From IMG/VR virus record IMGVR_UViG_3300044643_000367, positions 1-28,656 of that record: DNA of 28,656 nt, one strand, 5' to 3'. This DNA is from a virus. Positions 10,110 to 28,015 of this stretch are shown here, piece after piece; position 1 is the stretch's first letter, and the number at the start of each line of letters is the position of its first letter. The translations under genes were made by a program, and so were the position numbers. The notes below the pieces were generated by a model, which ran no database searches, was not told the DNA's origin, and saw only the letters and a program-made list of their open reading frames with translations.

Positions 10110-10418
10110 ATGGATGCATCACAACAATCAAACGAACAAGCACGTCGTCTTAGGATGATTGCTTCTAACTCAGGTTTAGCTGTAGGTTCTGGAGGCTTTA
10201 AACGCCACGGAATAGAAACTGTAACTACTGTAAGATACAGTGCTTTAGTAGTACAAGAAGACACAGTATTTACTGAATTTAAGGTTAACGGTATTTCTTT
10301 ACTATCTGCTAATGGAATGTCAGGAGTAACCTTCAAGCAAGGTGCTTTTCTTTCTGCAGAAGCTGGATTTATTACAGACTTTACTACCACTAGCGGTAGT
10401 GTAATTGCCTATAAGTAA
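10110..10418 (+). CDS. Small beta-rich probable virion protein
   Basis: 102 residues, first gene of the operon behind the 10064 promoter. The N-terminal 35 residues are polar and Gly/Ser-rich; the rest alternates hydrophobic and polar residues with many Thr, Val and Gly, suggesting a beta-sandwich or barrel. It ends with an SGSVIAYK stretch like those of small phage structural or fibre-associated proteins. There is no signal peptide or membrane segment. Its stop codon shares one base with the next start (TAATG), so it is probably translationally coupled to the adhesin-like protein. A virion decoration or fibre-base role fits the context but is not proven. The start is the first in-frame ATG after an A-rich leader. 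Confidence 0.5.
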   Translation: MDASQQSNEQARRLRMIASNSGLAVGSGGFKRHGIETVTTVRYSALVVQEDTVFTEFKVNGISLLSANGMSGVTFKQGAFLSAEAGFITDFTTTSGSVIAYK

Positions 10419-11611
10419 TGATTGGCATTGGTATTGACATAAGGGGAGGAGGATTCACTCGACTTCCTTTTCGTTTTACTATAAATACGAACAATACCTC
10501 AGCAGGTAGTAGTACAAGTACGCAGTTTAAGTTACCCTTAGTTTCTTCAGGAACACTAAACGCTGTAGTAGATTGGGGAGATGGAACTTCTAGTACTATT
10601 ACTACCTGGAACCAAGCAGAAGTAACACATACCTACGCTACTGCAGGTGTATACGATATTAAAATTACTGGAGTACTTAGAGGATGGCAGTTTAATAAGG
10701 GTGGTGATAGATTAAAAATACTTGATATTATTAACTGGAGTGGATTAAATATTAGTACGGATTTTGGATTTTATGGATGTACTAATTTAACCGCAAGTGC
10801 AACGGATGCCCCTTTGATTACGGCCACAAGTTTAAGAGAATATTTTAGAGAATGTCCTAATTTTAACGGTCAGATTGGCAATTGGAATGTATCACAAGTT
10901 CAAAATATGCGAGGTATGTTTCAAGGAGTTTTGGGAGGTACAAGAAACATTTTTAATAGCTATATTGGAGATTGGAATACTTCAAGTGTTACAGATATGT
11001 CATACATGTTTGATTGGTGTAGTTTTAACCAAAACATATCTACTAAAGTAGTAACGGTTAATGGTAATACCTATACTGCTTGGGATATGTCAAATGTAAT
11101 AGATATTTCTATAATGTTTCGAGCAAACCAAATTTTTAATCAACCTATTGAAAATTGGGATACTTCAAACATTCAAGGTATGTTTGGGGTTTTTAATAGT
11201 GCAAATGCATTTAATAGACCTATTGAAATTTGGGATACATCAAGCGTCACGAGTATGGGTCAAATGTTTCAAGCCAATCCTATATTTAACAGACCGATTG
11301 GTGTTTGGAACACATCAAGTGTTACAGATATGAGAGAAATGTTTAATGGTAATACGGGTTTCAATCAAGATATTGGAGCGTGGAACGTATCAAATGTTAC
11401 TAATTTTTTAAATTTTATGGCCACTAGATCACCTGCCAACTATTCAGCCGCAAATCTTAATAGTATTTACAATGGGTGGAGTTCACGACCTGTACAACCT
11501 AACTTGAATATTACTTTTGGAAGCATAAAGTACACTGAGGCAGGTCAAGCAGGTAAAAACATTTTGGATTTTGCACCTAACAACTGGACAATAACAGACG
11601 GAGGTATATAA
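10418..11611 (+). CDS. BspA-like (DUF285) repeat protein with N-terminal PKD-like domain, probable tail adhesin
   Basis: 397 residues. Residues about 35-88 contain DWGDGTS followed by HTYATAGVYDIKITG, the core pattern of PKD/immunoglobulin-like domains. From about residue 147 to 330 the protein is built of DUF285 (BspA-like) repeats with core MFxxxxxFNxxIxxWNTSSVTDM; the clearest copies are exactly 25 residues apart. A C-terminal module of about 65 residues ends in WTITDGGI. BspA-family proteins are surface adhesins of Bacteroidota and other bacteria that bind host matrix or other cells. Here there is no signal peptide, and the gene sits between small probable structural genes, so a receptor-binding fibre part is the best guess. 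By eye the gene is more AT-rich than its neighbours, consistent with recent gain. It is coupled to both neighbours by TAATG overlaps. Family call firm, role inferred. Confidence 0.75.
   Translation: MIGIGIDIRGGGFTRLPFRFTINTNNTSAGSSTSTQFKLPLVSSGTLNAVVDWGDGTSSTITTWNQAEVTHTYATAGVYDIKITGVLRGWQFNKGGDRLKILDIINWSGLNISTDFGFYGCTNLTASATDAPLITATSLREYFRECPNFNGQIGNWNVSQVQNMRGMFQGVLGGTRNIFNSYIGDWNTSSVTDMSYMFDWCSFNQNISTKVVTVNGNTYTAWDMSNVIDISIMFRANQIFNQPIENWDTSNIQGMFGVFNSANAFNRPIEIWDTSSVTSMGQMFQANPIFNRPIGVWNTSSVTDMREMFNGNTGFNQDIGAWNVSNVTNFLNFMATRSPANYSAANLNSIYNGWSSRPVQPNLNITFGSIKYTEAGQAGKNILDFAPNNWTITDGGI
10857..11406 (+). repeat. DUF285 25-residue (75-nt) tandem repeats inside the adhesin gene
   Basis: Repeated units encoding W-D/N-T/V-S followed by MF and FNxxI recur about every 75 nt. 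Three consecutive clean units run from about 11157 to 11381. Units further upstream are degenerate and separated by insertions. DNA identity between units is moderate: the stretch encoding SSVTDM appears near 10983 and 11320 with few changes. This could support recombination and repeat-number variation. Confidence 0.65.
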
Positions 11612-11817
11612 TGAGTGAGATAAAATTCCCAACACAGAGAACATACTTTATCACTTATACTGATACGAGTATTTTTAGTTATGGTTATGTTGATCCAGAT
11701 CAACAAATGACAAGTGGTCAACCTGAATTATATCAAACCACAGATGAACAAGCTTGGATAACAGAACTGAAAACTGTATTTAATACTACATACCCGCCTA
11801 TTACCACTACTGAATAA
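11611..11817 (+). CDS. Small adhesin-linked hypothetical protein
   Basis: 68 residues, no signal peptide or membrane segment. It begins MSEIKFPTQRTYFITYTDT and has a central SGQPELYQT stretch, features seen in small proteins encoded next to phage fibre genes. It is coupled on both sides by one-base TAATG overlaps, to the adhesin upstream and the holin downstream. Possibly a fibre accessory or chaperone; no function can be assigned from sequence alone. Confidence 0.5.
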   Translation: MSEIKFPTQRTYFITYTDTSIFSYGYVDPDQQMTSGQPELYQTTDEQAWITELKTVFNTTYPPITTTE

Positions 11818-12236
11818 TGAAGACCTCTTTCCTCTTATATACAAGTACAACTATCTTAGCTTTTCTGGGAACTTACTTCTTTGATTTAGGAGCAGATAAC
11901 GCTGAACAGTACTTAGCTGTAGTTGCTGTTGTGTTTATAGATGGATTCTTTGGGGTATGGGCAGGAACTAAGATGGAAGGTTTTAAGACGCATAAGGCTC
12001 TTAGCGTGCTTAAAACTTTGATGGTGTGGGTATTTATGCTTACAGGTATCTTAATGATTGAGAAGGGCTTTGAGGGCACTTTCTGGCTAAGTGAGACTAT
12101 TTGTGCTCCCTTTATTCTCTTTCAGCTTACCAGTGCACTAAAGAACGCAGCCAGAGCAGGACTCATTAAGAACGAACTGCTGCAGTTAATCTTAGATAAA
12201 ATAGACCAACACAAAGTAAATGAAAAACAAAATTGA
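11817..12236 (+). CDS. Phage holin (Phage_holin_4-like)
   Basis: 139 residues with three or four hydrophobic helices: about residues 8-24, 32-50, 66-84 and a weaker one at 90-105. The loop between helices 2 and 3 carries the GVWAGTKMEGFKTHKA pattern typical of toxin-secretion/phage-lysis holins. A charged C-terminal tail of about 30 residues follows, as in many holins. Holins pool in the inner membrane and open lesions that trigger lysis. It is followed by two nested membrane-periplasm proteins and a histidine kinase, which makes this the lysis cluster. No endolysin is recognisable in the window. The start is coupled to the preceding stop (TAATG). Confidence 0.65.
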   Translation: MKTSFLLYTSTTILAFLGTYFFDLGADNAEQYLAVVAVVFIDGFFGVWAGTKMEGFKTHKALSVLKTLMVWVFMLTGILMIEKGFEGTFWLSETICAPFILFQLTSALKNAARAGLIKNELLQLILDKIDQHKVNEKQN

Positions 12237-12540
12237 AGCTATCATAATAGGGCTACTGCTAATAACAGTAGCCTTCTTGTTATGGGAAAGGCAGTCCCTA
12301 AATAGCGGAAACGAAGAAAAGTTTATGGCTTACATGGACTCAATGGAAAAACGTAACGAGACTTTTCTCAGCAGAGTGGATTCGTTATCTACACTTAAAC
12401 ATGAACAATTTAGTTACTATGAAAAAATCAACCTCAAGTATGACACTATTCAGATTGCTCTTGATACTATGCCTGACATTGACGGCACCAAGTATCTACT
12501 CACAATCTCTAGACAGCTTACCGCTAAAGGAGTTGAATAA
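12220..12540 (+). CDS. Inner-membrane spanin-like protein
   Basis: 106 residues: one N-terminal membrane helix (about residues 6-22) followed by a polar, mostly helical region with coiled-coil character (about residues 30-75). This is the usual layout of an i-spanin (Rz type), anchored in the inner membrane and reaching across the periplasm to help disrupt the outer membrane. It starts 17 nt inside the end of the holin gene, and another secreted protein is encoded in the +1 frame over its last third. The spanin call rests on topology and position; spanins share little sequence. An unrelated membrane-anchored coiled-coil protein is the alternative. Confidence 0.5.
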   Translation: MKNKIEAIIIGLLLITVAFLLWERQSLNSGNEEKFMAYMDSMEKRNETFLSRVDSLSTLKHEQFSYYEKINLKYDTIQIALDTMPDIDGTKYLLTISRQLTAKGVE

Positions 12541-12790
12541 CGAATTCCTTAAGGGAATCAAAGCAAGAGAACGTGTAGTTGTTCTTAAGACTGTTATTCA
12601 TTTGGACAGTCAGCAAATCAATCTATACAAGGATTCGATTGTTCCTAATTATCAACAGATGATAGAGGTGTCTAAAACAGAGGTCACCAAACTAAATCGT
12701 GTGATAGACAGAAAGAACTTAGAGATGAAGATGTACAAGTATGGATTCTTAGGTATGTCTTTACTAGCAATCTTTAGTTTTATCTTATAA
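12419..12790 (+). CDS. Nested secreted protein with C-terminal membrane helix, possible spanin partner
   Basis: 123 residues from the ATG at 12419 (a slightly longer form could start at 12401). It begins inside the i-spanin-like gene in a different frame, overlapping it by 122 nt, as in Rz/Rz1 pairs. The N-terminus is a signal peptide with a basic start, a hydrophobic core and a likely signal peptidase I site after SIYS. The cysteine in the core is not in a proper lipobox, so it is not an evident lipoprotein. A helical, coiled-coil-prone middle (residues about 40-100) leads to a C-terminal membrane helix (about 106-123). Signal sequence plus C-terminal anchor recalls unimolecular spanins, minus the lipid anchor. 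The role in lysis is inferred from context. Confidence 0.5.
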   Translation: MKKSTSSMTLFRLLLILCLTLTAPSIYSQSLDSLPLKELNNEFLKGIKARERVVVLKTVIHLDSQQINLYKDSIVPNYQQMIEVSKTEVTKLNRVIDRKNLEMKMYKYGFLGMSLLAIFSFIL

Positions 12791-12793
12791 TGT

Positions 12794-13996
12794 ATGCAGT
12801 TAAGTATAAGAGCCAAAGTGAGTGTAGTGGTAGCAAGCATACTTATGCTTTTCCTACTCTACAATCAATCTACAGTTGTACTTAAGTACAACCCACTTAA
12901 CTATGATAAGGAACTCTTAGAGTTTTGGTTAACTGTAGCTTTCTTACTATTCTTTTTCCTTGGTTGTATTGAGTTTGTTCGTAAGGCTAGGTATAAGTTT
13001 CAAAGCATTGACGCTACCTTCCACGCTATCAACTCATCAAACATACTGGTAGAGTTTGATACTGAGGGAGAGATACTTACAGCTAACGCTAAGTTTAAGC
13101 AACTCTTCGGAGATGTAGTCAGTCATAGAGACTTAGACGACTCTCCTATTAAGGAGTGGAGAGAGTTCTGGTTACATTTAAGAATAGGTTACTTTAAACA
13201 AGGTGAGTATAACTGTAATGGAGTTTGGCTCTATGGGAACTTTAACCCTATCAAAGATCCCTATGGAGAGGTTTATAAAATCCTTTTAATTGCTACGGAA
13301 ATTACAGAGAAGAAAAAGATTGAAGCAGAAATTGCCAAGAAGAACTCTTACTTAGAGCACGCAGCTAAAATCTTAAGACACGACATGCACTCTGGAATCA
13401 ACACTTACATTCCTCGTGGGTTGTCTTCCTTAAAAAGAAGATTAACTGAAGAGCAGATTAAAGAGTTAAAGATAGATGCTCCCTTAAGAATGGTAGAAGA
13501 GGGATTAATTCATACCCAAAAGGTTTACAATGGAGTTAAAGAGTTCACTAATTTGGTTAAGCAAGACGCACACCTAGAACTTAAGTTACACAATCTTAAA
13601 GAAATACTCCACAGTTACCTGTCTAGTACCTCTTACGAGAAACAAGTAGTCATAGAAGAGTTACCAGAGATTGAAGTTAACGAGTCTTTGTTCTGCACAG
13701 CTGTAGACAACCTGATAAGAAACGGACTCAAGTACAATGATTCGGGTACTAAGTTAGTTCGTATCTTTGCAGAAGGAGATTATTTAATCATCGAAGATAA
13801 CGGAAGAGGAATGTCTCAAGAAGATTTGATTCAGTGGTCTCAGCCCTACAAGAGAAAAGAAGGGCAACAGGAGACAGGAACAGGTCTTGGCTTAAACATA
13901 TGTACTGCAATTATGGAAGAGCATAAGTTTACTGTAGTTGCAGAAAAATTATCAGAACCAGAAGCAGGAACTAAACTAAAAATAAAAATAAAATGA
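12794..13996 (+). CDS. Phage-encoded membrane sensor histidine kinase
   Basis: 400 residues. Two membrane helices (about 8-24 and 43-62) are joined by a loop of only about 18 residues, then a PAS-like domain (about 75-178, with VEFDTEGEILTAN), a dimerisation helix with phosphoacceptor H196 in LRHDMHSGI, and a full HATPase domain: N310 (N box), D335 in EDNGRGM (G1) and GTGLG at 362-366 (G2). All catalytic residues are present, so it should be active. With so small an extracytoplasmic loop, sensing is probably in the membrane itself or by the PAS domain. The ATG at 12794 is 3 nt after the preceding stop; an ATG at 12790 is out of frame. The stop overlaps the response regulator start (ATGA). It lies in the lysis operon behind holin and spanin-like genes. 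Family call firm; signal and target unknown. Confidence 0.9.
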   Translation: MQLSIRAKVSVVVASILMLFLLYNQSTVVLKYNPLNYDKELLEFWLTVAFLLFFFLGCIEFVRKARYKFQSIDATFHAINSSNILVEFDTEGEILTANAKFKQLFGDVVSHRDLDDSPIKEWREFWLHLRIGYFKQGEYNCNGVWLYGNFNPIKDPYGEVYKILLIATEITEKKKIEAEIAKKNSYLEHAAKILRHDMHSGINTYIPRGLSSLKRRLTEEQIKELKIDAPLRMVEEGLIHTQKVYNGVKEFTNLVKQDAHLELKLHNLKEILHSYLSSTSYEKQVVIEELPEIEVNESLFCTAVDNLIRNGLKYNDSGTKLVRIFAEGDYLIIEDNGRGMSQEDLIQWSQPYKRKEGQQETGTGLGLNICTAIMEEHKFTVVAEKLSEPEAGTKLKIKIK

Positions 13997-14430
13997 TAGA
14001 CTCTATATTACTCGTTGATGATGAAGACTTATTCCATTTAGTGTTTGAAGACTCTTGTAGTTTATTAGACATTACATTAAGTCTACAGAGTTTAACTTCA
14101 TCTGATGAGGCAGATAAACTCTTTAAGAAATGGTTTCAAGAAGGACCCCAAGAGGAGAAACCTGACTGTGTATTTGTTGACCTTAACATAATTGGTTCTT
14201 CTTTTGACGGAATTGAACTGATACGTAAGATTAACTTTGAGTACGGCAATGGAGTTGTAATAGGGATTATTTCTTCTTCTGACGATAAGCAGGAGATTGA
14301 AAAGGCAAAGGCTGTAGGTGCTCAGTTCTGGATCATCAAGAGTGACGAGATTGAACCTCGCTTAGAAGCTTTCCGCAAAGATTACGATAGTTACAAGAAT
14401 AAAACAGCTCCCTTTAAAGTCTATAAGTGA
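13993..14430 (+). CDS. Single-domain response regulator (REC only)
   Basis: 145 residues, one receiver domain and nothing else. The conserved residues are visible: acidic pair D9/D10 (LLVDDED), phosphoacceptor D63 (VFVDLNI), Ser at 94/95 in IISSSDD in place of the switch Thr/Ser, and K116 (IIKSD). It overlaps the kinase gene by 4 nt (ATGA) and the next gene by 4 nt (GTGA), so it is surely the partner of the kinase at 12794. With no DNA-binding or enzymatic output domain it should act by protein-protein contact, like CheY or Spo0F. Candidate partners are the coiled-coil membrane protein encoded next, the holin, or a host phosphorelay protein. Partner identity is inference. Confidence 0.88.
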   Translation: MIDSILLVDDEDLFHLVFEDSCSLLDITLSLQSLTSSDEADKLFKKWFQEGPQEEKPDCVFVDLNIIGSSFDGIELIRKINFEYGNGVVIGIISSSDDKQEIEKAKAVGAQFWIIKSDEIEPRLEAFRKDYDSYKNKTAPFKVYK

Positions 14431-14975
14431 TATCCTTTAATAAAGATATTGAGTCGGACTTAATCTCTCTGTACAAATCTAAGAAGATTGCACTAGAGGG
14501 AAACTTACTTAAAGTAATTAAAACTACTAATAAGGAGTTCCAAGAATATCTAGAAGAGGCAAAAACCAAAGACCAAGACACTAGAAGGAAACGACTAGAG
14601 GTAACTAAACAAGTACAATCCCAGAACAAAGACCTAATAGATAGTCAAGCAGAGAAAGAGAAGTTAATGCTTGAGTTAAAGCAAGCTTTGTCTGAGTCAG
14701 AAAAGCTACGAGAAGTAGCGGTAGATGACTTAGAGACCCTTCAGAAGAAGACTCAGTTTGAACTTATAGGACTTATAGTAAAAGTAGCTTTGGGAGCTGT
14801 GGCTGCCGTATGTGTATTTACAACTATACTTTACTTATACGTTCTTAGCAAAGGATTAGATTCTAAAATCATTGAGAGTACCTGGAGTAATATGTTTGGT
14901 ATAATTCTAACTAACTGTTTCTCAATCATCGGTACTATAATGGGAGTTAAACACATAACAGATTCAAAAAAATGA
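14427..14975 (+). CDS. Coiled-coil protein with two C-terminal membrane helices, coupled to the two-component pair
   Basis: 182 residues starting at GTG 14427, a start supported by the 4-nt GTGA overlap with the response regulator. Residues about 1-108 are highly charged and helical with coiled-coil character (rich in Lys, Glu and Gln). Two hydrophobic helices follow (about 112-140 and 153-172), separated by a short loop, then a basic SKK end. Predicted topology: long N-terminal coiled coil in the cytoplasm, two passes through the inner membrane. It is not a recognised family. Its position makes it the best candidate for the membrane output of the phosphorelay, for example binding phosphorylated REC and changing a membrane complex. 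It is followed by a 49-residue membrane protein overlapping by 4 nt. Confidence 0.7.
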   Translation: MISFNKDIESDLISLYKSKKIALEGNLLKVIKTTNKEFQEYLEEAKTKDQDTRRKRLEVTKQVQSQNKDLIDSQAEKEKLMLELKQALSESEKLREVAVDDLETLQKKTQFELIGLIVKVALGAVAAVCVFTTILYLYVLSKGLDSKIIESTWSNMFGIILTNCFSIIGTIMGVKHITDSKK

Positions 14976-15121
14976 CACTACTATCATTACAAGAGTGGGC
15001 AAAGGGAGCTGAGGTATACATTGTATGCTTCTTTAATGCAGCTATGTTTATCATCTGTGCTTTTGGCTTAAGTTTTTTCTTTGACCAGTATTACGCCAAG
15101 AAGGAAAGAATGGATTTATAA
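14972..15121 (+). CDS. 49-residue single-pass membrane protein
   Basis: A small gene supported by its ATGA overlap with the preceding stop (14972-14975). The product starts MTLLSLQEWAKG, has one hydrophobic helix (about residues 14-37, rich in Phe, Ile, Val and Ala), then a short basic tail (YYAKKERMDL). The positive tail suggests that the C-terminus faces the cytoplasm. It is the last of four genes joined by 4-nt overlaps with the histidine kinase. Size and topology recall small holins, antiholins and membrane-kinase modulators. Function unknown. The stop at 15119-15121 is directly followed by a promoter-like motif for the nuclease. Confidence 0.6.
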   Translation: MTLLSLQEWAKGAEVYIVCFFNAAMFIICAFGLSFFFDQYYAKKERMDL

Positions 15122-15137
15122 CATACATTTGTGTATG
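15122..15137 (+). promoter_or_regulatory. Possible promoter/operator overlapping the nuclease start codon
   Basis: TACATTTG at 15124-15131 matches the TAnnTTTG -7 box and ends 3 nt before the ATG at 15135. No -33 TTG sits at the usual distance. The site is also a perfect inverted repeat, CATACA-TTTG-TGTATG (15122-15137), covering both the -7 box and the start codon. It could be an operator, or an RNA hairpin hiding the start codon in read-through transcripts. Promoter activity is uncertain. Confidence 0.4.
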
Positions 15138-15713
15138 AAAAACTTTATCTTATCTTTATTTCTCTTTGTTGCAACTTGTGTAAGTGCTCAAAGAGACAGC
15201 GTATTCATTAAGACACCTATCTATTCTTGTGTCTATTCTGAAATTTTACAACAGCCTAAGCGTGTATGGTACACAGTTCAATGCCCATCAGGGTCTTATC
15301 CTCGCAAGGGAATGGACTTCTACACTAACGATAGTGTAATTACATCTGACGGAAAAGACTACGAGGGTAATGTATGGGACAAAGGACACTGTGCCCCGGC
15401 TGCTGACTTTAACTGCACAAGAGAAACCTTGTGGCAGACGTTTTCTTATTTGAATTGTATCCTCCAGCACGAGAAATTAAACAGAGGTGCTTGGAGATTA
15501 CTAGAAGCGTATGAGCGTCAATTGGCTCTTACAACAAAGGTAAATGTACAAATAGATGTTATTTACGCTAAGAACGCAGCTAAGTTACCGACAGGTGCTA
15601 CTATACCAACTGCCTTTAGAAAAATAATTAGTTTTGATAATAAAAAAGAAATCTATTACTTTGTAAATGAAGCTCCTAAGTCAAATGACTTTAAGCTTTA
15701 TTTAATAAAGTAA
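15135..15713 (+). CDS. Secreted DNA/RNA non-specific endonuclease (NucA/Serratia type)
   Basis: 192 residues from the ATG at 15135, chosen because it begins a clean signal peptide (MKNFILSLF, cleavage after VSA at about residue 18). The motif DKGH at residues 82-85 within WDKGHCAPAADF is the DRGH catalytic motif of the beta-beta-alpha-metal nucleases, with H85 as general base. N107 in SYLNCILQ, followed by NRGAW, is the metal-binding Asn region of the family. Length is short for the family but complete. The mature enzyme should act in the periplasm or outside the cell, cutting DNA or RNA without sequence preference. Coming after the lysis genes, it may degrade released host nucleic acid or chromosomal DNA once membranes fail. 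Phage DNA is presumably protected in capsids by then. Role inferred, family firm. Confidence 0.85.
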   Translation: MKNFILSLFLFVATCVSAQRDSVFIKTPIYSCVYSEILQQPKRVWYTVQCPSGSYPRKGMDFYTNDSVITSDGKDYEGNVWDKGHCAPAADFNCTRETLWQTFSYLNCILQHEKLNRGAWRLLEAYERQLALTTKVNVQIDVIYAKNAAKLPTGATIPTAFRKIISFDNKKEIYYFVNEAPKSNDFKLYLIK

Positions 15714-15975: not shown

Positions 15976-16308
15976 TTACTTCTTTACTACTGTAGGACCA
16001 CCGGTCATTTCGAAGAATGCCTTAATCTCGGCAACTTCTTTCAACTCAATGGTGATTGGTTCACTCGTAACTTCAAACTTCTTGATTTTTACGGGAACCT
16101 TTTGCTTAGTTGTAGGATCAATCTTGTACTCGTACTCTACGGGATTCAACTTATCCGCATTACGATTTAAGATTACTGCTAAACCTTCCTTTACAGGATA
16201 GGTCATAACTACTGAGTCTATGTCAAATGAATAGCCAGTTTCTGGGACAAACTCCATTTCTTCTCCGTCCTCTATTTTTTTCTTCTCGGTGTAATAAAAC
16301 AGTCTCAT
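15976..16308 (-). CDS. 110-residue hypothetical protein
   Basis: Last gene of the - strand operon, ending at the shared terminator. It starts by a 4-nt ATGA overlap with the preceding gene. Beta-rich and charged, with Lys/Glu-rich stretches, a central YEYKIDPTTKQK turn and ELKEVAEIKAFFE near the C-terminus. No signal peptide, membrane segment or known motif. Function unknown. Confidence 0.55.
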   Translation of the reverse strand: MRLFYYTEKKKIEDGEEMEFVPETGYSFDIDSVVMTYPVKEGLAVILNRNADKLNPVEYEYKIDPTTKQKVPVKIKKFEVTSEPITIELKEVAEIKAFFEMTGGPTVVKK

Positions 16309-16742
16309 GATTTTTTATTTCTAGGCTTGCTTGGGTAATGTTTCTTTTTCTTTTTAGTAGGTTCTGAGTGAGGTACTACGTTAGCAGCAACTGGCTTAGG
16401 CTCTTCTTTAACCTCAGGTAGAACTTCAGGTATAACTTCAGTAGCAACTACGGGTGTAGGCTCTTCTGTAGGCATCTCCATTTCGTAGACATCATCTGTT
16501 GCATCAGGAGCAACTAACTCAGCCTCTACTTCTTTGGTAGGTTCGATTACTTCAACTAAGTCTTCTTCTCTAACGAATAAATCAGATGGTGGAGGCTCAG
16601 GTGCTTCTTTTGCTAGAAGTTCGTCCATAATCTTATCTGCTACCTCTTCTGTAGTACTGGGGACTGGATCTCCGCTACTTACTACTGCGATGATAAGAGC
16701 TATCAAAAGTAGAAATCCAATTAAATAAATTGCGGTTTCCAT
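16305..16742 (-). CDS. Membrane-anchored Pro/Glu-rich protein with basic tail
   Basis: 145 residues. One membrane helix at about residues 4-22, then a long low-complexity segment (about 25-120) dominated by Glu, Pro, Val and Thr with many EP, PT and KP pairs. A strongly basic C-terminal tail includes KKKKKHYPSK. The N-terminal half of TonB is built similarly (anchor plus Pro/Glu/Lys spacer), but no TonB C-terminal domain follows. The acidic N-terminus and basic C-terminus favour the tail in the cytoplasm, unlike TonB. It lies among small membrane and replication-linked genes. Function unknown; it could be a membrane tether or a decoy for a host complex. Confidence 0.55.
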   Translation of the reverse strand: METAIYLIGFLLLIALIIAVVSSGDPVPSTTEEVADKIMDELLAKEAPEPPPSDLFVREEDLVEVIEPTKEVEAELVAPDATDDVYEMEMPTEEPTPVVATEVIPEVLPEVKEEPKPVAANVVPHSEPTKKKKKHYPSKPRNKKS

Positions 16743-16746
16743 GTCT

Positions 16747-17034
16747 TTAATTCCAGATAAGTGAGATGTCCATATCTCTGATCATGATACGATCATCACC
16801 ATCGATAGGAAGGATTTCTGCATAGGCAAGTACAGCTGGAGATACATACACAAGGTCTCCGGCTTTAAAGTCAGTAACTTCGTCACCGACTGCAAAGATT
16901 TCAAGCTCTGTGTACTTCTTCATTTCTTCTTGCATTAACTGCTCTTTTGTTTCGGGAGATAACTCCAGACCCAAGTCATTGATTTGAGGCTTGTTCAATA
17001 GAACTCTTTTGCCTTTTAGGGAGAATGTGCTCAT
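16747..17034 (-). CDS. GroES-like co-chaperonin
   Basis: 95 residues, the size of Cpn10/GroES. It begins with LKGKRVLLNKP, has a middle like the GroES mobile-loop region (about 18-40), then VGDEVTDFKAGDLVYV and a C-terminal IMIRDMDISLIW, matching the GroES pattern of V-G-x-G, K-x-GD-x-V and a final strand with a D-I pair. Phage co-chaperonins such as T4 Gp31 replace GroES so that host GroEL can fold the capsid protein. No GroEL is visible. Start coupled to the preceding stop (TAATG). Distant similarity, moderate confidence. Confidence 0.5.
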   Translation of the reverse strand: MSTFSLKGKRVLLNKPQINDLGLELSPETKEQLMQEEMKKYTELEIFAVGDEVTDFKAGDLVYVSPAVLAYAEILPIDGDDRIMIRDMDISLIWN

Positions 17035-17303
17035 TATTTTGTTTCTGTTTTAGTTGGTTTGAATAATTCAAGTTCTGCTTCTCTAAGCTCTAACTGTTTC
17101 TGTACGAAGTTTTTTTCTCTAAGGTTTGCCTCTTCAGCCATAGCTAAATGCCTTTTATTCATTATTTGTGCTTCGAGATTTAACCTATGAATACGTTCAA
17201 AATTGTCATTACTTTTTATTAGCTGAACTAAATTTAAATGCCCAATGATAGTACTTACTAATAAACTTATTGTTATTAGTACGAGGCAGGTTTCGGTTAT
17301 CAT
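17034..17303 (-). CDS. Small membrane protein with coiled-coil tail
   Basis: 89 residues: a hydrophobic N-terminal helix (about 5-22, MITETCLVLITISLLVST) and a long charged helical tail (about 28-82) with coiled-coil character and ending Lys/Thr-rich. A single-pass anchored coiled-coil protein, topologically similar to i-spanins but encoded in the replication operon. It overlaps the dCMP deaminase gene by 4 nt (ATGA) and is coupled to the GroES-like gene. Function unknown. Confidence 0.55.
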   Translation of the reverse strand: MITETCLVLITISLLVSTIIGHLNLVQLIKSNDNFERIHRLNLEAQIMNKRHLAMAEEANLREKNFVQKQLELREAELELFKPTKTETK

Positions 17304-17725
17304 AATTTTTTCTTGTTAAGTTTATATTGGTCTACGTACACTCCACAGTTCTGAAGCAGTTTAACTCCTGCCTCATCCCTGTATTTATTTATGAAGTACA
17401 CTTTTTTGATACCACTCTGAATTATAAGTTTGGCACACTCTAAACAACATGAATGCGTAATGTACATAGTCGCTCCTTCAGTTGATATGGGGGACTTACA
17501 AGCCTTAGTAATGGCGTTTGACTCTGCGTGAAGGACATAACTGAAAGTCACATCTTCTTCCTCACATTTATTGGGCATACCGGAAGGTGTTCCGTTATAC
17601 CCAAATGATATGATGTTTCCGTCTTTTGCAATAATTGCACCTACTTGTAATCGCTTACAGTAAGATTCCTTAGCAACTCTTTCTGCTAAGTCTAAGTAGA
17701 GTTCTAATTTTTTTAATGCACTCAT
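17300..17725 (-). CDS. Deoxycytidylate (dCMP) deaminase
   Basis: 141 residues with the cytidine/deoxycytidylate deaminase zinc site: H66-A-E68 (HAES) as ligand and proton shuttle, and C94-L-E-C97 as the other ligands. The usual Pro before the first Cys is replaced by Cys (HSCCLEC). FGYNGTPSGMPN at about 41-52 matches the substrate-binding loop of dCMP deaminases. The enzyme turns dCMP into dUMP for dTTP synthesis. It belongs with the dATP/dGTP diphosphohydrolase-like and uracil-DNA glycosylase genes as nucleotide metabolism. 4-nt overlaps with both neighbours. Confidence 0.88.
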   Translation of the reverse strand: MSALKKLELYLDLAERVAKESYCKRLQVGAIIAKDGNIISFGYNGTPSGMPNKCEEEDVTFSYVLHAESNAITKACKSPISTEGATMYITHSCCLECAKLIIQSGIKKVYFINKYRDEAGVKLLQNCGVYVDQYKLNKKKL

Positions 17726-18153
17726 AAATTATACCTATAGATTTCTCTCGAATAATCTAAACCCATAATTAAATCGGAGTGCAAGTTAGTAACTTTTTTG
17801 AATTCATCCGAATACTTTCCAGGAATCATATGCTTTAATTTGTAGAAATCCTCCTGATATGCCTGTCCTACCTTAAAAACAAGCATTCTTTGTTTATCCA
17901 CACCTGTGTCATACCAATCGTAGAAAGACTGAAAGTTGATTACTTTTTCCTCCAACGTAGGATAGAATCTGTAGGATGTATTAAATAGAAATAAAATGCA
18001 GTTCTGATATTTACACCTATGCCCATAGTCATCTATATAAACATTAATTAGACCTGACTCTACAAGCATTGGCAAAGAACTTGAATTAAAGATAAGACCA
18101 GTAAATAACTTACTGGCCATATTAAATCTAGTTAAGTCTATGTTACTTGCCAT
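17722..18153 (-). CDS. 143-residue hypothetical protein
   Basis: Not recognised. Mixed alpha/beta, rich in Tyr and Phe, with LFLFNTSYRFYPTLEEK in the middle and a GKYSDEFKK stretch near residue 115. No signal peptide or clear membrane helix. It overlaps the PD-(D/E)XK nuclease gene upstream by 11 nt and dCMP deaminase downstream by 4 nt. A perfect DnaA-box 9-mer (17894-17902) lies inside it. Function unknown. Confidence 0.5.
   Translation of the reverse strand: MASNIDLTRFNMASKLFTGLIFNSSSLPMLVESGLINVYIDDYGHRCKYQNCILFLFNTSYRFYPTLEEKVINFQSFYDWYDTGVDKQRMLVFKVGQAYQEDFYKLKHMIPGKYSDEFKKVTNLHSDLIMGLDYSREIYRYNL
17894..17902 (+). other. Perfect DnaA-box 9-mer TTATCCACA
   Basis: Exact match to the high-affinity bacterial DnaA box, inside the 143-residue hypothetical gene (its complement encodes part of GVDK). 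Relevant because the phage encodes a DnaA domain IV-like protein. Confidence 0.35.
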
Positions 18154-19138
18154 TATCTACCGTAGGTAAAGTTATCAATCTAACACCTTCGTTTTGATAA
18201 TCTTCCATAGGATAATCCCACAAATCATTTTCACTATGCCAAGCGAGACGCTTGATAGCTTGGTCAAAACCTTCATACTCTCTGCTGATCATACGACCAC
18301 CGAATCTACCAAAGTCAATAATAGGTAAACCTGCCTCAAACACCAAAGGAGTTCCAGGACTGCTTTGACTCTCTACAATAAACTTGAACGGCTTAATCAC
18401 GGTACAGTTATACTTTTGACAGTAGTTGCCTAAGAACAAACCATTAACGTAGAATGCTGCTTGGAAGTCATAGCGTAGTTTCCAGAACATAGAAAGCCAG
18501 TTAGTTGTCTTTACGTTAGTAGTTTTGATGTCGATAGGATACAAATACCCTTTCTCTTTGTCAACTACTAGCATGTCCAAAAGACCTTTGCAAGCTATTC
18601 CGTTGTATTCAAATTCGATAGGAACTTGGTAATGTACTTCGTACCTTTCGTTTTGTTGGAAGTACTTGGCTGTGTAAGGATGATTCAACAAACTGTCTTT
18701 GATAGAATAAATCTGTACTAGTTGTTGCGAAGTAATCACTGTCTTAGTTTCACCGGCTAATAGCGCATCGTAGTACTCTTTGCCTTCAACCTTAAACCTC
18801 TCTAGGACTTTATCAAAAGAATCTCTCTTGAAGCCTACAGTACTGTACGCAATCTCTGCTGCTTCAGGATTACCTCTGTTGATGAATAGTTCCCACACAA
18901 AGTCTCCCATCTGACCAGAAGGTCTTTCTACGTTACTGATGTGAAATCTTTCGTGGAAGACTTCCTCGCTTTGGGTGATTAGAATATCAACGGCATCTCC
19001 TACTACAATGTTTGCTTTAGGCTCGTCAAACTCAGTGTCGTAACTAGAGTTAAGATATTCTGTTGGGTGAATCAGGATTTTCTTTAAACGGCTCTGACTC
19101 ACTGCCGTACTGTCTAGGTATGTTTGATCTGTTATCAT
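18143..19138 (-). CDS. PD-(D/E)XK exonuclease (RecE/exonuclease VIII-like)
   Basis: 331 residues from the ATG at 19138, chosen over an upstream GTG at 19174 because the ATG sits in a 4-nt ATGA overlap with the preceding gene. The PD-(D/E)XK core is visible: D188 in GLLDML, D203-I-K205 in YPIDIKTT, and Q226 in YDFQAAFY. The N-terminal SRLKKILIHPTEYL is the usual opening of this phage exonuclease family (exodeoxyribonuclease VIII-like domain). Such enzymes resect double-stranded DNA for annealing recombination or process replication ends. Likely partners are the single-strand binding protein and the NinB/NinG-like genes of the same operon. Confidence 0.8.
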   Translation of the reverse strand: MITDQTYLDSTAVSQSRLKKILIHPTEYLNSSYDTEFDEPKANIVVGDAVDILITQSEEVFHERFHISNVERPSGQMGDFVWELFINRGNPEAAEIAYSTVGFKRDSFDKVLERFKVEGKEYYDALLAGETKTVITSQQLVQIYSIKDSLLNHPYTAKYFQQNERYEVHYQVPIEFEYNGIACKGLLDMLVVDKEKGYLYPIDIKTTNVKTTNWLSMFWKLRYDFQAAFYVNGLFLGNYCQKYNCTVIKPFKFIVESQSSPGTPLVFEAGLPIIDFGRFGGRMISREYEGFDQAIKRLAWHSENDLWDYPMEDYQNEGVRLITLPTVDNGK

Positions 19139-19320
19139 TTCTTGATTTCTATTAAAATTGAAAAGTAAAGCCACCCTATGTGTAAGGAATAGCTTTGTGC
19201 TCTGGTTTTAGAATATCCTATTAAAGGAATAAAGTAAAAAAATACGTAAGGATTATCTCTCTGTCCGTACTTTTTCTGAAAGAAATTGTGCGCTGAAATC
19301 TTAATCTTGTTGGAGGTCAT
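19135..19320 (-). CDS. 61-residue hypothetical protein
   Basis: Starts at the ATG at 19320, inside the end of the upstream gene, and its stop overlaps the nuclease start (ATGA), which supports it as real. The first ten residues are basic, followed by FFQKKYGQRDNPYVFFYF and a C-terminal WLYFSILIEIKK; aromatic and beta-rich, possibly a small barrel. A longer form from 19365 is less likely. Function unknown. Confidence 0.5.
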   Translation of the reverse strand: MTSNKIKISAHNFFQKKYGQRDNPYVFFYFIPLIGYSKTRAQSYSLHIGWLYFSILIEIKK

Positions 19321-19684
19321 TGTACTCTTCCTTTTCACGTAAGACATAAGATAAAAATAAAGCATTGCACTGGATATGTCCTATGTGCTCAATGCCACTC
19401 TCAGGATCTACTAACTCACCCTCAAGTAACTTGAAGGTGTGTCTAAGCATACTCTCAATAATCTGAGTAGCTGGCATACCCTTACGCCAATTGTTCCGAG
19501 CATACTTGTGGCACCCGTACTCTAATACTCTTACCATTGGCTCTAGAGACTTAAAGTCTACCAAAGACCACTCTACCTTGCCCTGATTGTATCTAAGGGC
19601 TTGAGGAGATTCACCTAAACTTTTTGTTACGGCATCGATTTGTTCTTTTGTCCAATGCCCTTCACTAGTTATCTTGTTTTCCAT
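19301..19684 (-). CDS. dATP/dGTP diphosphohydrolase-like protein (DUF5664, MazZ-type)
   Basis: 127 residues. The run of motifs RYNQGKVEWSLVDF, YGCHKYARNNWRKGM, SMLRHTFKLLEGELVDPESG and HIGHIQCN matches the DUF5664 / dATP-dGTP diphosphohydrolase N-terminal family, an all-alpha MazG-like fold. The conserved Glu, Asp and His residues probably bind metal and nucleotide. In Z-genome phages, MazZ of this family removes dATP and dGTP so that diaminopurine can replace adenine, but the family is also common in phages with normal DNA. No PurZ is present in the window. It sits between a NinB-like gene and a nuclease gene, with overlaps on both sides. Family call from motif memory; substrate inferred. 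Confidence 0.6.
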   Translation of the reverse strand: MENKITSEGHWTKEQIDAVTKSLGESPQALRYNQGKVEWSLVDFKSLEPMVRVLEYGCHKYARNNWRKGMPATQIIESMLRHTFKLLEGELVDPESGIEHIGHIQCNALFLSYVLREKEEYNDLQQD

Positions 19685-20129
19685 ATTCTTTAGTTGGTTC
19701 TGGGATGGTTACATCAAGAATGTTACGCCCAAATTCGATAACATCTTGGATAAATTTAAGTACCTCTGACTTCTTAGCCTTAGCTAAAGACATTGGTATC
19801 TTCTTGAATTCTCCTTCGAATAAAACTTCTTCGTACAGGTACATGGTTTTTAGGATACTGATCGTCTCATCCTTAGTAAAGGTTGTACCTTCTAACTCCT
19901 CGAAGCGTTCTTTAATGATAGGCAGAACTATGCCGTAGAAATAAGCCAATTGTGGTAATGTACGTTTAGAATCAACTCTAATTATACTTACCTCTACGTT
20001 TACTTCTGGTTCGCCTAACATCAATTCACCGAAGTAAGATTGCATTAAATCTTTATCTACCTTGAGGTAGATGTTGCCGTCTAGATTCTTACTGAGTTTA
20101 CCCGGCAGGTGTATTCTTGTTATTGACAT
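19665..20129 (-). CDS. NinB-like recombination protein (tentative)
   Basis: 154 residues, soluble. Residues about 51-75 read DSKRTLPQLAYFYG followed by a VLPIIKERF helix. This resembles the conserved 'R-x-x-x-Q-x-x-Y-x-x-G-V-V-x-P' segment of NinB-type phage recombination proteins and related Bacteroidota phage proteins. A Lys-rich helix follows (about 120-140). Neighbouring recombination genes (PD-(D/E)XK exonuclease, NinG-like protein) fit. Similarity is weak and the call is a suggestion. The start overlaps the preceding gene by 32 nt. Confidence 0.35.
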   Translation of the reverse strand: MSITRIHLPGKLSKNLDGNIYLKVDKDLMQSYFGELMLGEPEVNVEVSIIRVDSKRTLPQLAYFYGIVLPIIKERFEELEGTTFTKDETISILKTMYLYEEVLFEGEFKKIPMSLAKAKKSEVLKFIQDVIEFGRNILDVTIPEPTKEYGKQDN

Positions 20130-20391
20130 CTTCTTTTTCTAGTTCCTCTAGTAATCTAAATGCTAATTCTTCCTCTGCCTCTAATTGTCCTTTCAAGTTA
20201 CGCTTACCAAAAGCTGCATCAATCTGTCTCATAAAGTACGAGTTAGTGCCTTTAGCATTACTTATTGCTTTGTACAAATCTGGGTTAACGTATTCACGAA
20301 TGAATTGATATTGGATATTAAGGGCCTTTGCTAATACATAGGCCCTTCTTATATCCGCTAACACTTGTTGGTCAGAGGGTTTTTTCGTCAT
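20098..20391 (-). CDS. 97-residue hypothetical helical protein
   Basis: Not recognised. Almost entirely helical and charged, with SDQQVLADIRRAYVLA at the start and EAEEELAFRLLEELEKE near the end; no membrane segment. An 8-bp perfect inverted repeat (20320-20327 with 20340-20347) lies in its early codons. It overlaps the genes on both sides by 20 and 32 nt. Possibly a small DNA-binding or adaptor protein; no direct evidence. Confidence 0.5.
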   Translation of the reverse strand: MTKKPSDQQVLADIRRAYVLAKALNIQYQFIREYVNPDLYKAISNAKGTNSYFMRQIDAAFGKRNLKGQLEAEEELAFRLLEELEKEDVNNKNTPAG

Positions 20392-21025
20392 GTTCTTGGT
20401 TTGCTAAATAATCTTTGTATGCTTTTTCCAAAAGATTTAAATCCTCTTGAGTAAGTTCACCCCAATAATCTATTTCGAAGTGATTTATAATTTCTTCCAT
20501 GCTGTCAAAGTAACCTTCTTCAATAGAATCCATTGTGTTCTGCCAAAAGCCTTCAGGATTTTCCATCATTTGCATTTGGTTATAACTCATCTGCGTGTCT
20601 TCCAATTCTCCCGTAGGAGAGATAGTGAATTTACCTGCAAAATCCATTCCTGACTCTTCGTAGTAGCCTTCTAGGGTTAGTTTATACTCAACAGCTAGCT
20701 TGATAAAAAATGGAAGCATAGGACTCCAAGCAGAATCTCCTGATATGGTAAGTGAACCATCTTCAACATCTATCTCAAACTCACCTTGAAACCATTTAGA
20801 ACCGTAATTTTCATATACAGCATTCCAAGGTTTTTTATCATCATCGAATTCTTCTTGCTCTAATATCTCTTGAGGAAAGAACATTGGATAAACCTTGTAA
20901 TAACATTCTACATAGGTAGTGCTTGTTTCTTTATTATCCAATAAAGCATCTACAATTGACTTTAAACGAGCCAGGTTCTCTTTGGAACCCGACCCATTTA
21001 CATAGTTATAACAATGATTTGCCAT
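20372..21025 (-). CDS. YubB/Api92-like protein with ferredoxin-like domain
   Basis: 217 residues. The opening MANHCYNYVNGSG, the middle GSKWFQGEFEI and DSAWSPMLPF, and YYEESGMDFAG are the hallmarks of the YubB ferredoxin-like (DUF1281, Api92-like) family found in phages and plasmids. The C-terminal 70 residues are acidic and helical. Biochemical function of the family is not established. The gene lies 2 nt after a small gene and overlaps the next by 20 nt. Confidence 0.65.
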   Translation of the reverse strand: MANHCYNYVNGSGSKENLARLKSIVDALLDNKETSTTYVECYYKVYPMFFPQEILEQEEFDDDKKPWNAVYENYGSKWFQGEFEIDVEDGSLTISGDSAWSPMLPFFIKLAVEYKLTLEGYYEESGMDFAGKFTISPTGELEDTQMSYNQMQMMENPEGFWQNTMDSIEEGYFDSMEEIINHFEIDYWGELTQEDLNLLEKAYKDYLANQEHDEKTL

Positions 21026-21027
21026 AA

Positions 21028-21273
21028 TTAAAACTGATGAAATTCAGCAGAGGGTGGTTGTACAAATAGTACTCCAGAGTTATTACCTTCTCCATCTCTA
21101 CTAGGGTAAAACAAAGTGCCATCTTCCAACTCTAGAACGATTAACTCTTCGTCCCAATGTAAATCTTCAAGTTCTTCTTGAGAAGCATAACGTACTGACT
21201 TAATCTTCTTTCCAACAAAGATATCTTGAGCCATTTCCAATCTTTCTACTTGATATTCTACCATTGTCTTCAT
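21028..21273 (-). CDS. 81-residue hypothetical acidic protein
   Basis: Not recognised. Begins at a TAATG overlap with the preceding stop; an internal ATG at 21264 is an alternative start. Acidic, beta-rich middle (KIKSVRYASQEELE, then LIVLELEDGTLFYPSRDG), suggesting a small SH3-like or double-strand fold. Function unknown. Confidence 0.5.
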   Translation of the reverse strand: MKTMVEYQVERLEMAQDIFVGKKIKSVRYASQEELEDLHWDEELIVLELEDGTLFYPSRDGEGNNSGVLFVQPPSAEFHQF

Positions 21274-21824
21274 TATTCTGCTGCGTAACCAAAGAAATAG
21301 TACTGACCAGGAGCTTGGTTCTTGTCGTGCTTAAACTTAATTCTAGCTACTGTAGGACTACAACTAACTAGTACACGCTCCATGATAACAGAAGTATTTT
21401 CCATAGTCTTTTCTGTGTACTGTCGAGCCAACTTAACAGCTTCAGTCTTGTGTCCACTAGAGTTAATCTTTTGTCCGTGGTTATTCAGTACAAAGTAAAC
21501 CAAGTCCCACTTCTTAGTACCTGGAACTACAATGTCTTCTACTTGAGTTTTAACCTTAAGCTTATTTTCTTTAGGGTCTTGGATACATACTCCCCAAGCA
21601 GGTCCCCACTTAGACGTGTTTTCAATTTCTTTATCGATAAATGATCGTATGTCTAATTTACTTTTTTTCCACTCAGCGGTTTTGTCTACAAAACCTTCCG
21701 TAGTACTGATGGTTCCGTTGTAACGATCATTGCCGTATTCAGAACGTGCATCGTCTACTAATTGATTGTACGCCTCTCTCATAGAGTAGGCTCTTGATTT
21801 TTCTACAAATGTTGTTGCTCCCAT
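21273..21824 (-). CDS. 183-residue conserved phage hypothetical protein
   Basis: Opens MGATTFVEKSRAYSMREAY and contains YNGTISTTEGFVDKT, a sequence style I associate with a widespread but uncharacterised Bacteroidota phage protein. Mixed alpha/beta with GPAWGVCIQDP and a C-terminal YYFFGYAAE; no membrane segment. It follows the polymerase gene by 16 nt. Function unknown. Confidence 0.55.
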   Translation of the reverse strand: MGATTFVEKSRAYSMREAYNQLVDDARSEYGNDRYNGTISTTEGFVDKTAEWKKSKLDIRSFIDKEIENTSKWGPAWGVCIQDPKENKLKVKTQVEDIVVPGTKKWDLVYFVLNNHGQKINSSGHKTEAVKLARQYTEKTMENTSVIMERVLVSCSPTVARIKFKHDKNQAPGQYYFFGYAAE

Positions 21825-21840
21825 AATTTTAGTTTTTAGT

Positions 21841-23844
21841 TTATTTTTTCCAGAATTTTTCTATGCAAGGATCTGCTTTAAGCGGTACTCGCTTACAGAA
21901 GACAGCCCCTGCTTTTACCATTGCATCTTCTAGTGCATTTGCTACTTCTCCTGATAAAGACTCAGGACACTCTACTAGGTTCTCGTCGTGAACCGTGTTA
22001 ATAAATTTGATTGTGAACAATAGTTTGTTCGGTAGTAAATAATCTTCCCAGAAATAAACACAGGATAGTTTAGTTATCTCAGCGCTTTCACCCTGTATCG
22101 GGTAGTTCAATGACATACGCTCTATCTGACCTTTCTTACCGAAGAAAGTAGATACCTGTTGTTTAATCTTAGAGTAAGATGCTGTTTTGTGTTCTCTGTG
22201 TTTTTTGTAGTTATCCCAAAAGCCCTTAACACCTACAGCTTTTTTTGCTTCGAGAAACTCATCATAGTAATCTACGTATGATTTTTTGCCTGTTACGGCT
22301 GAGATTAGTACATACCCGTTATCCACACCAAACTTCTTGGCTTCGTCAAAGTATGCTTTCAATCCCGGGAAGGCTGCAAAGTACGCATCATAGATCTTCT
22401 GACCTTGTTCTACATCTAATCCTAGTTGGTCGGCTATACCTATGCCGCTACCACCGTAGTTGATTGCAAAACCAGCTACTTTAGCTGACTGACGCTTGTC
22501 TTTGTGCTTCTTTTTAATTTCATCTAGAGTCAATCCATCTAGTTCATCGTACATCTTGCTGGCAACAAAGCTGTGCATGTCACCCAAGTCTTTGTCATAG
22601 AACTCTAAGAGGTTTTTATCCAAGCATTTGTTAACCAAAACAATCTGTTCCTGGCCTGTGTAGTCACATCCGATAATAACATTACCATCCTCTGCTACGA
22701 AACAACTGCGAGTCTCTTCATCGCTAGGTATGTTCTGTAGGTTAGGATATGCTTCACCGGTTTCTTTGTTTCTACCACCGCTTGATAGACGGCCCGTGTT
22801 CATCAACTGTTTGTACTGTGTGTGGATTCTTCCGCTTACAGGATTGATTAGTCTAATCCAATTCTCTCCATAAGTACCCAAATCTTTCTGAGCTTGCTTG
22901 TACTTTAAGTAAGTCTCAATGATTGGGAACTTGCCTTGGACTTTAATCAAGTGACTTGCCTCGATAGTATCCTTGGTCTCTCCTTTATCAGTAACTGAGG
23001 TGTCTACTCCAAGTGATTTGAAAAAATCTACTACTTGGTGAGAAGAGTTCCAGTTAATAGAGGTTTTGATTTCAGGATTAAACAGATCTGTTTGTCGTTG
23101 GATAAACCGAATCATCTTATTGTCTAGGATGAATTTATCTAGCGTCTTCTCAGCCTCATCTAGTTCCAATTTAGTCTTGCCCATTTTAACTCTCCACTTG
23201 TCTTGGTCTAGCTTAATACCGCAGTATTCTATGTACGCTAAGACCTTAACGAACCTATTGTCGAGTTCTATGGACTTTAAGGAACCCTGTTTTTCAAGTA
23301 TATCTAATTGAATATCTTTGAGTTGGTGTAAATAAGTCACATCGAGGGCAGAATAAAGAAGAAATGGGACGGTGAATTTTCCATTGATATTCTTCCGTTC
23401 TGTCTTATCCATTACTACGCCTAAGTGACGATACACACATGCATCCAAACTACATCTGTGACTATCTATACCTAACCTTGTGGTCTTCTCGCCTAAGAAA
23501 GTATCATAGACCTTAGTAGGAATGATTCTCTCGTGGTATAGGAACTTCAAGTCAAACTTTAAATTGTGTCCAATAAGCTCTTTGGTTTCCAACAGCTCCT
23601 TGAAGAACTGTATGTCCACACTCTTGACATCAATTACAAACTGATGCTTCTCATTGCCTAACTGAATAGTCAATAAGTCTGTAGTGTAAGGATCAAAGCC
23701 TAGAGTCTCGCAGTCAAAGCCTAAGACATCCTTTTGTTCTAGTGCAGATAACGCTTGCTCTTTGCTACAGAATACAATACCGTCTTCAGGCCTAAGCTTT
23801 AAAGTCCTTTGTATGGTTGGGTTCTCTGTTACAAATCCTATCAT
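21841..23844 (-). CDS. polA: Family A DNA polymerase with 3'-5' proofreading domain
   Basis: 667 residues. The N-terminal DEDDy exonuclease has Exo I D44/E46 (FDCETLGFD), Exo II D98 (GHNLKFDLKF) and Exo III Y164/D168 (YSALD), so proofreading should work. The polymerase domain has TGRLSS (about 350), motif A D394-Y-T-G-Q-E399, motif B R451/K455/F459/Y463 (RQSAKVAGFAINYGG), the NYPIQG helix (580-585) and motif C H619-D-E (TVHDEN). There is no 5' nuclease domain, as in other phage replicases of this family. Motif A differs from cellular Pol I (TGQE in place of SQIE) but keeps Asp and Glu. The phage replicase, working with the primase and single-strand binding protein here. Starts by ATGA overlap with the NinG-like gene. 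Confidence 0.95.
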   Translation of the reverse strand: MIGFVTENPTIQRTLKLRPEDGIVFCSKEQALSALEQKDVLGFDCETLGFDPYTTDLLTIQLGNEKHQFVIDVKSVDIQFFKELLETKELIGHNLKFDLKFLYHERIIPTKVYDTFLGEKTTRLGIDSHRCSLDACVYRHLGVVMDKTERKNINGKFTVPFLLYSALDVTYLHQLKDIQLDILEKQGSLKSIELDNRFVKVLAYIEYCGIKLDQDKWRVKMGKTKLELDEAEKTLDKFILDNKMIRFIQRQTDLFNPEIKTSINWNSSHQVVDFFKSLGVDTSVTDKGETKDTIEASHLIKVQGKFPIIETYLKYKQAQKDLGTYGENWIRLINPVSGRIHTQYKQLMNTGRLSSGGRNKETGEAYPNLQNIPSDEETRSCFVAEDGNVIIGCDYTGQEQIVLVNKCLDKNLLEFYDKDLGDMHSFVASKMYDELDGLTLDEIKKKHKDKRQSAKVAGFAINYGGSGIGIADQLGLDVEQGQKIYDAYFAAFPGLKAYFDEAKKFGVDNGYVLISAVTGKKSYVDYYDEFLEAKKAVGVKGFWDNYKKHREHKTASYSKIKQQVSTFFGKKGQIERMSLNYPIQGESAEITKLSCVYFWEDYLLPNKLLFTIKFINTVHDENLVECPESLSGEVANALEDAMVKAGAVFCKRVPLKADPCIEKFWKK
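22319..22327 (+). other. Second perfect DnaA-box 9-mer TTATCCACA
   Basis: Exact 9-mer inside the DNA polymerase gene, in the same orientation as the one at 17894. Its complement encodes part of GVDN, so codon choice may explain it. Confidence 0.35.
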
Positions 23845-24488: not shown

Positions 24489-24491
24489 AAA

Positions 24492-24521
24492 CAAATATAA
24501 TAAATAAAATTAAAGGGCAAA
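24492..24521 (-). promoter_or_regulatory. Promoter of the ninG-like/polA segment
   Basis: Read on the - strand: TTTG (24521-24518), an 18-nt spacer, then TATATTTG (24499-24492), a good Bacteroidota promoter. The -7 box ends 3 nt before the ATG at 24488, so the transcript is probably leaderless or nearly so. The -33 TTTG lies inside the terminator hairpin of the preceding gene. Confidence 0.7.
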
Positions 24522-24540
24522 AGAAATCTCTTGCCCTTAA
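24511..24540 (-). terminator. Terminator of the DUF932 gene
   Basis: On the - strand, AAGGGCAA (24538-24531) pairs with TTGCCCTT (24520-24513) around a 10-nt loop and is followed by a T-rich TAATTTTATTTATTA tail. It lies in the 76-nt gap between DUF932 and the NinG-like gene and overlaps the -33 region of the next promoter. Confidence 0.75.
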
Positions 24541-24564
24541 CATAGAGAATTATAACTTTATAAG

Positions 24565-25434: not shown

Positions 25435-25436
25435 AA

Positions 25437-27979: not shown

Positions 27980-27986
27980 AAATAAA

Positions 27987-28008
27987 AGGGAGGCTTTTAC
28001 ACCTCCCT
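27987..28008 (-). terminator. Terminator/attenuator between the ssb-like gene and the primase
   Basis: AGGGAGG (27987-27993) and CCTCCCT (28002-28008) form a 7-bp GC-rich stem with an 8-nt loop. On the - strand it is followed by TTTATTT running into the primase ATG at 27979. Partial termination would set a high level of the single-strand binding protein over the replication genes behind it. Confidence 0.8.
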
Positions 28009-28015
28009 ATATTAA

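Follow-up and report, generated by a model that had tools for sequence, protein, structure and literature searches.

A phage-encoded module of histidine kinase, stand-alone receiver and coiled-coil membrane protein with a possible role in lysis timing

The window analyzed here, meaning the whole 28,656-nt stretch of IMG/VR record IMGVR_UViG_3300044643_000367, encodes a sensor histidine kinase (HK), a stand-alone receiver (RR), a coiled-coil protein with two transmembrane (TM) helices (CC) and a small single-TM protein (TM49) (Table 1). As stated in the initial annotation, the list of open reading frames (ORFs) joins these four by successive 4-nt overlaps (ATGA, GTGA and ATGA). A gene for a Phage_holin_4_1 protein lies upstream of HK, as do two spanin-like ORFs, which share ~140 nt (12401-12540) in different frames within 12220-12790, an Rz/Rz1-like embedding. 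The gene at 10418-11611, upstream of the holin gene, encodes DUF285 repeats together with a PKD-like domain, and its product may be an adhesin or part of the tail tip; DUF285-like and other putative tip proteins differ among relatives of the window phage. The minus strand at 16000-28621 carries a replication block comprising a PD-(D/E)XK exonuclease, a family A DNA polymerase, a Toprim primase, a uracil-DNA glycosylase and a deoxycytidylate-deaminase-like protein. The late promoter that had been proposed for the unit was not confirmed: the window contains 12 sigma-70-like sites versus 17.9 in shuffled sequence. Bacteroidota-type promoter motifs, sought as a clue to the host, were likewise not enriched. 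No observation favored a crAss-like affiliation of the phage.

Table 1. Positions of the cassette genes and their neighbors in the window
Feature	Position	Strand	Description	Basis
Holin-like protein	11817..12236	+	Neighbor	Phage_holin_4_1 / PHROG 199
Inner-membrane spanin-like ORF	12220..12540	+	Neighbor	N-terminal TM and coiled coil by eye; no family match
129-aa ORF	12401..12790	+	Spanin-like by position; signal-peptide-like start, C-terminal hydrophobic segment	No family match
HK	12794..13996	+	Sensor histidine kinase of 400 aa made up of TM hairpin, PAS, DHp (with H196) and ATPase domain; core gene 1	ORF list, Pfam, motifs, AlphaFold2
RR	13993..14430	+	Stand-alone receiver, 145 aa; D9/D10, D63, S94, K116; core gene 2	ORF list, Pfam, motifs
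CC	14427..14975	+	182 aa, GTG start; N-lobe, long cytoplasmic coiled coil, two TM helices; core gene 3, proposed output, without known family	
TM49	14972..15121	+	49-aa single-TM ORF, translationally coupled; accessory, near relatives only	
DNA/RNA non-specific endonuclease	15135..15713	+	Secreted; local neighbor, outside conserved core	Family match

HK has the hallmarks of its class, a phospho-acceptor histidine in DHp plus the N, G1 and G2 boxes of an ATPase domain. In Pfam it matches HATPase_c (1.8e-13), with additional weak PAS matches and no match to HisKA. The AlphaFold2 model (pLDDT 86) consists of a TM hairpin, a PAS domain, a DHp helix pair and an ATPase domain, with H196 located within the first DHp helix (171-216), and solved histidine kinases in the PDB match the cytoplasmic part of this model. 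H196, N306/N310, D335 and G362/G364/G366 are unchanged in an alignment of 29 diverse HKs, the H-box YLEHAAKILRHDMHSGINTY is nearly invariant, and the RHDMHSG(I/L)N box is present in all kinases inspected (101/101).

The modeled TM helices (residues 5-29 and 37-82) are connected by a loop of ~7 residues. Two TM helices, a loop of under ~25 residues and no periplasmic domain are the feature of intramembrane-sensing kinases, and the window HK and most of its relatives have it. Most members thus resemble kinases of the BceS/LiaS type in having two TM helices, a very short loop and no periplasmic sensor domain, but many of the phage HKs add PAS or GAF domains, and some have no TM helices or have a secreted N-terminal part. 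Two TM helices are predicted in 67 of 101 HK relatives and none in 14, so not all members would sense the membrane directly. By sequence reading, the TM hairpin can be placed directly on the DHp domain (300 aa) or be combined with one PAS domain (400 aa), and longer inputs contain two PAS domains (540 aa) or a GAF and two PAS domains (717 aa). In several large phages (L203, L209, L213, L228, L235, L241 and L253), two kinases sharing the H-box precede a single RR and CC; the second of these starts like a signal peptide, continues with an extracytoplasmic coiled coil and a TM helix, and lacks PAS, and a secreted coiled-coil protein of ~200 aa can separate the two kinases (L203, L213 and L228).

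RR matches Response_reg in Pfam (9.1e-9) and contains the acid pair, phospho-acceptor aspartate, S/T and lysine of a receiver. D9, D10, D63, S94 and K116 are unchanged across 25 diverse RRs, and the receiver motifs are kept in 108/108 RRs. The claim that this phage carries a complete kinase and receiver is borne out by the ORFs, the HATPase_c and Response_reg matches, and the invariant H196/N310/D335 and D9/D10/D63/K116. RR consists of the receiver domain alone (145 aa) and has no DNA-binding output domain, which sets it apart from the transcriptional two-component class with OmpR, NarL, NtrC or LytTR output. The arrangement is that of systems with stand-alone, CheY-like receivers, in which neighboring genes encode a DHp/ATPase kinase bearing the H, N, G1 and G2 boxes and a receiver bearing the acid pair, the phospho-accepting aspartate, S/T and lysine. 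In contrast to its bacterial counterparts, the present system is phage-encoded and is always accompanied by a dedicated coiled-coil protein that has two TM helices and belongs to no known family.

The model of this third protein, CC (pLDDT 81.5, with a low pTM of 0.34), contains a small N-lobe, a 107-residue helix that spans a cytoplasmic part and the first TM segment, plus the second TM helix, which is the most conserved stretch of the protein (SNxFGIxLTNxFSIxGTIMGVK). No known family, holin models included, matched CC above cut-off in Pfam, PHROGs or NCBIfam, and sub-threshold Pfam matches such as LMBR1 and KAP were taken as coiled-coil noise. Foldseek found no solved structure in the PDB resembling CC and a single match among viral models, to an uncharacterized phage protein (E 5.7e-12). 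Neither the family nor the structure searches indicated any likeness to a known holin or antiholin. CC represents a new membrane-protein family.

Scanning IMG/VR with RR yielded 453 loci, while scans with the CC alignment and with a distant-receiver alignment gave at least 548 and at least 553 confirmed loci, respectively; these sets overlap, and the best 80 of each were examined. No RR relatives were found among 50,697 phage records. In 44 non-redundant loci, HK, RR and CC are present in 43, 44 and 41, respectively, and every other neighbor in at most 15. When receivers were clustered so that RRs were <97% identical, giving 108 non-redundant loci, all three genes were found in the order HK-RR-CC in 99; seven loci are cut by contig ends and two are start-codon artifacts. 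In these last two, the apparent exceptions L188 and L238, the missing gene is present and the predicted overlap is longer. Overlaps of 4 or 1 nt are usual among trio loci. A reverse search starting at CC produced the same picture, and CC always occurs with RR and HK wherever the contig extends far enough. The trio-bearing contigs range from a few kb up to 430 kb, and HK-RR-CC is a strict three-gene module in phages of ordinary to huge genome size. The four-gene order proposed in the initial annotation therefore stands for HK, RR and CC, with TM49 falling outside the core. Both TM49 and the nuclease, which had been described as flanking the unit opposite the holin and spanin-like genes, are confined to close relatives of the window phage and were excluded from the core for this reason. 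Other genes occasionally occur within the cassette: by eye, HK and RR are separated by a GIY-YIG homing-endonuclease-like gene in one locus (L212:3324-4046, similar in L258), and protein families with an MKITRRQLRxLI start surround the cassette in L221, L222, L230 and L261, in the first two of which they are also found between RR and CC.

RR is the most conserved of the three genes, with a median amino-acid divergence of 0.23 compared to 0.44 for HK and 0.45 for CC, and is under strong purifying selection. Its four-fold sites are 34% identical at the median, i.e., saturated, so that the conservation of the protein must be old and maintained by selection. Chance ORFs or chance likeness are ruled out by motifs that stay invariant across saturated synonymous sites. 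That HK and RR, as ordinary two-component domains, might be host-derived passenger genes lacking a phage function is a reading refuted by this long purifying selection in phages, and given that phage loci number in the hundreds, with motifs unchanged although the synonymous sites are saturated, together with a single apparently chromosomal copy in all the genomes searched (see below), we regard it as extremely improbable. The strong conservation of RR, as if it contacted a conserved partner outside the trio, and its lack of an output domain of its own would also fit a role in which HK and RR mainly target the host (regulators, protease adaptors or RNA polymerase) and reprogram the cell, with CC as an anchor or scaffold for RR. 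This we consider unlikely, since CC is never seen without RR and HK where the contig permits a view, and its membrane hairpin, which a scaffold would not need, is strongly conserved. Mirror-tree correlations between the three proteins (HK-RR, 0.69; RR-CC, 0.57; HK-CC, 0.69) are too unspecific to argue for contacts.

A scan of genome contigs returned two loci. One (L124) resembles a phage contig, having PhoH-like and terminase-like neighbors by eye. The other (L125) is apparently on a bacterial chromosome, in a 4.9-Mb Bacteroidetes metagenome-assembled genome (MAG), where its neighbors encode a Por-secretion-tail protein, a DUF5690 protein and an FAD oxidoreductase. Here HK and RR of the phage-module type adjoin a third gene (L125:8041-9090) whose product contains the N-lobe and coil of CC (E 4.5e-24), followed by HisKA and HATPase domains in place of the TM hairpin. 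Because this fusion stands beside an HK and RR of the same type, the N-lobe and coil appear to form an interchangeable input module. This one case, from a metagenome assembly, suggests that the CC N-lobe may answer to RR, and that the TM hairpin would be the phage output. No further clear chromosomal copies were found in 395 genomes of the phylum searched with the CC profile or in 341 genomes of the order searched with the RR profile; five other Bacteroidota genomes gave weak N-lobe matches at noise level (E 0.003-0.008).

The presence of the CC N-lobe on a second kinase in L125 could also be taken to mean that CC is an extra sensor or kinase regulator, whose TM hairpin senses and signals to HK or RR, and since a pair of kinases per RR is common in large phages, several inputs can converge on RR. 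With CC on the input side, the trio would have no output of its own because RR has none, and the position of CC after RR is constant; we consider this arrangement very unlikely and treat CC as the proposed output.

The initial annotation had stated beforehand that its proposal would fail if the cassette were not conserved beside lysis genes in related phages, and the association holds across unrelated phages. In a whole-contig scan, a GH24 lysozyme, PHROG 3000 or PHROG 199 holin lies within 3 kb of RR in 18 of the 25 contigs having a detectable one. In a second, largely different contig set, 14 of 20 contigs have a GH19 endolysin within 3 kb against an expectation of 2.0 (Fisher p 2e-8), and contigs of 290, 294 and 430 kb are among them; since related phages do not count as independent, p-values for this linkage overstate the evidence. 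Of 62 well-covered loci, 32 have a hydrolase or holin no farther than 4.5 kb away, and the other 30 have no recognized lysis gene at that distance. The hydrolases belong to six unrelated families (GH19, GH24, Amidase_2, Peptidase_M15, PHROG 3000/33083 and PHROG 1501). PHROG 3000 and PHROG 1501 are given no function in PHROGs, but PHROG 3000 proteins also match an endolysin family, and for PHROG 1501 we infer a cell-wall role. The trio thus lies beside lysis genes more often than chance, as an enriched and not universal association. The linkage could also arise if the trio and the lysis genes were both late genes sharing a region.

Such a shared region is part of another explanation, in which the trio serves superinfection exclusion or membrane surveillance: HK would detect the envelope disturbance caused by a second phage, CC would block DNA entry or depolarize the membrane, as Imm/Sp or RexAB do, and the lysis genes would be near only as late, envelope-related genes. 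The TM hairpin with a very short loop in most HKs, the membrane location of CC with its strongly conserved second TM helix, and the roughly half of loci with no recognized lysis gene nearby all agree with this. However, the linkage recurs with unrelated endolysin families, and HK, RR and CC have no match to known anti-phage defense in PADLOC. We judge surveillance as the principal role to be rather unlikely, and it is compatible with a lysis role, since lysis inhibition itself answers superinfection.

We lean, by a narrow measure, toward a phage-encoded three-component signaling module in which HK signals through RR to the membrane effector CC and thereby tunes lysis. With its TM hairpin, which in most members has almost no periplasmic part, and with the optional PAS or GAF domains, HK would sense some condition in or close to the inner membrane. 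It would then phosphorylate the stand-alone RR at D63, RR would in turn act on CC at its N-lobe and coiled coil in the cytoplasm, and the two-helix membrane hairpin of CC would change state, which would advance or delay lysis jointly with the phage's own holin and endolysin. As judged from sequence, phosphotransfer from HK to RR is very probable and signaling from RR to CC is likely. A role in lysis timing, the part of the initial annotation that spoke of a lysis-control system, is somewhat favored by gene context and protein anatomy; the enrichment of lysis genes agrees with it, and the 30 loci with none recognized nearby do not.

Lysis timing is usually attributed to a holin clock, and lysis inhibition has been reported for a few phages. 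Lysis inhibition in T4 through RI/T (PMC11413866), in N4 (PMC12642591) and in ICP1 (PMC7182436) is effected by antiholins in the periplasm or by other proteins, none of them known to be a histidine kinase or receiver; the likeness to the present module, an envelope condition sensed and the lysis time changed, is by proposal only. Among bacterial systems, LytSR is a two-component system tied to the Lrg/Cid holin-like membrane proteins. The holin-like genes concerned are cidAB and lrgAB (PMC6997555). The link to holin-like membrane proteins is the point of likeness, but LytR is a bacterial DNA-binding transcription factor, whereas the phage RR has no output domain and belongs to a viral module. 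A receiver fold is also carried by jumbo phages in the form of cREC, a receiver-like domain that accompanies NAD/ADPr enzymes and is reported never to occur in histidine-kinase systems (PMC7824862), in contrast to the RR of the trio, which always occurs with a histidine kinase. Phrase searches, which covered few subscription journals, returned no paper, experiment or cultured phage concerning a phage-encoded kinase-receiver cassette.

More tentatively, and somewhat short of an even chance in our estimation, the trio may constitute an undescribed form of viral signal transduction, a histidine-kinase relay in phages from ordinary to huge in which the receiver would directly drive a dedicated membrane effector and set the time of lysis by the state of the envelope, related to a bacterial two-kinase relay by a domain swap between kinase core and membrane hairpin. 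If this is true, many phages, represented by hundreds of environmental contigs, would use classical phosphotransfer to gauge the condition of the infected cell and only then lyse it, and uncultured viruses, among them ones with very large genomes, may base the moment of lysis on what they sense of the cell's state.
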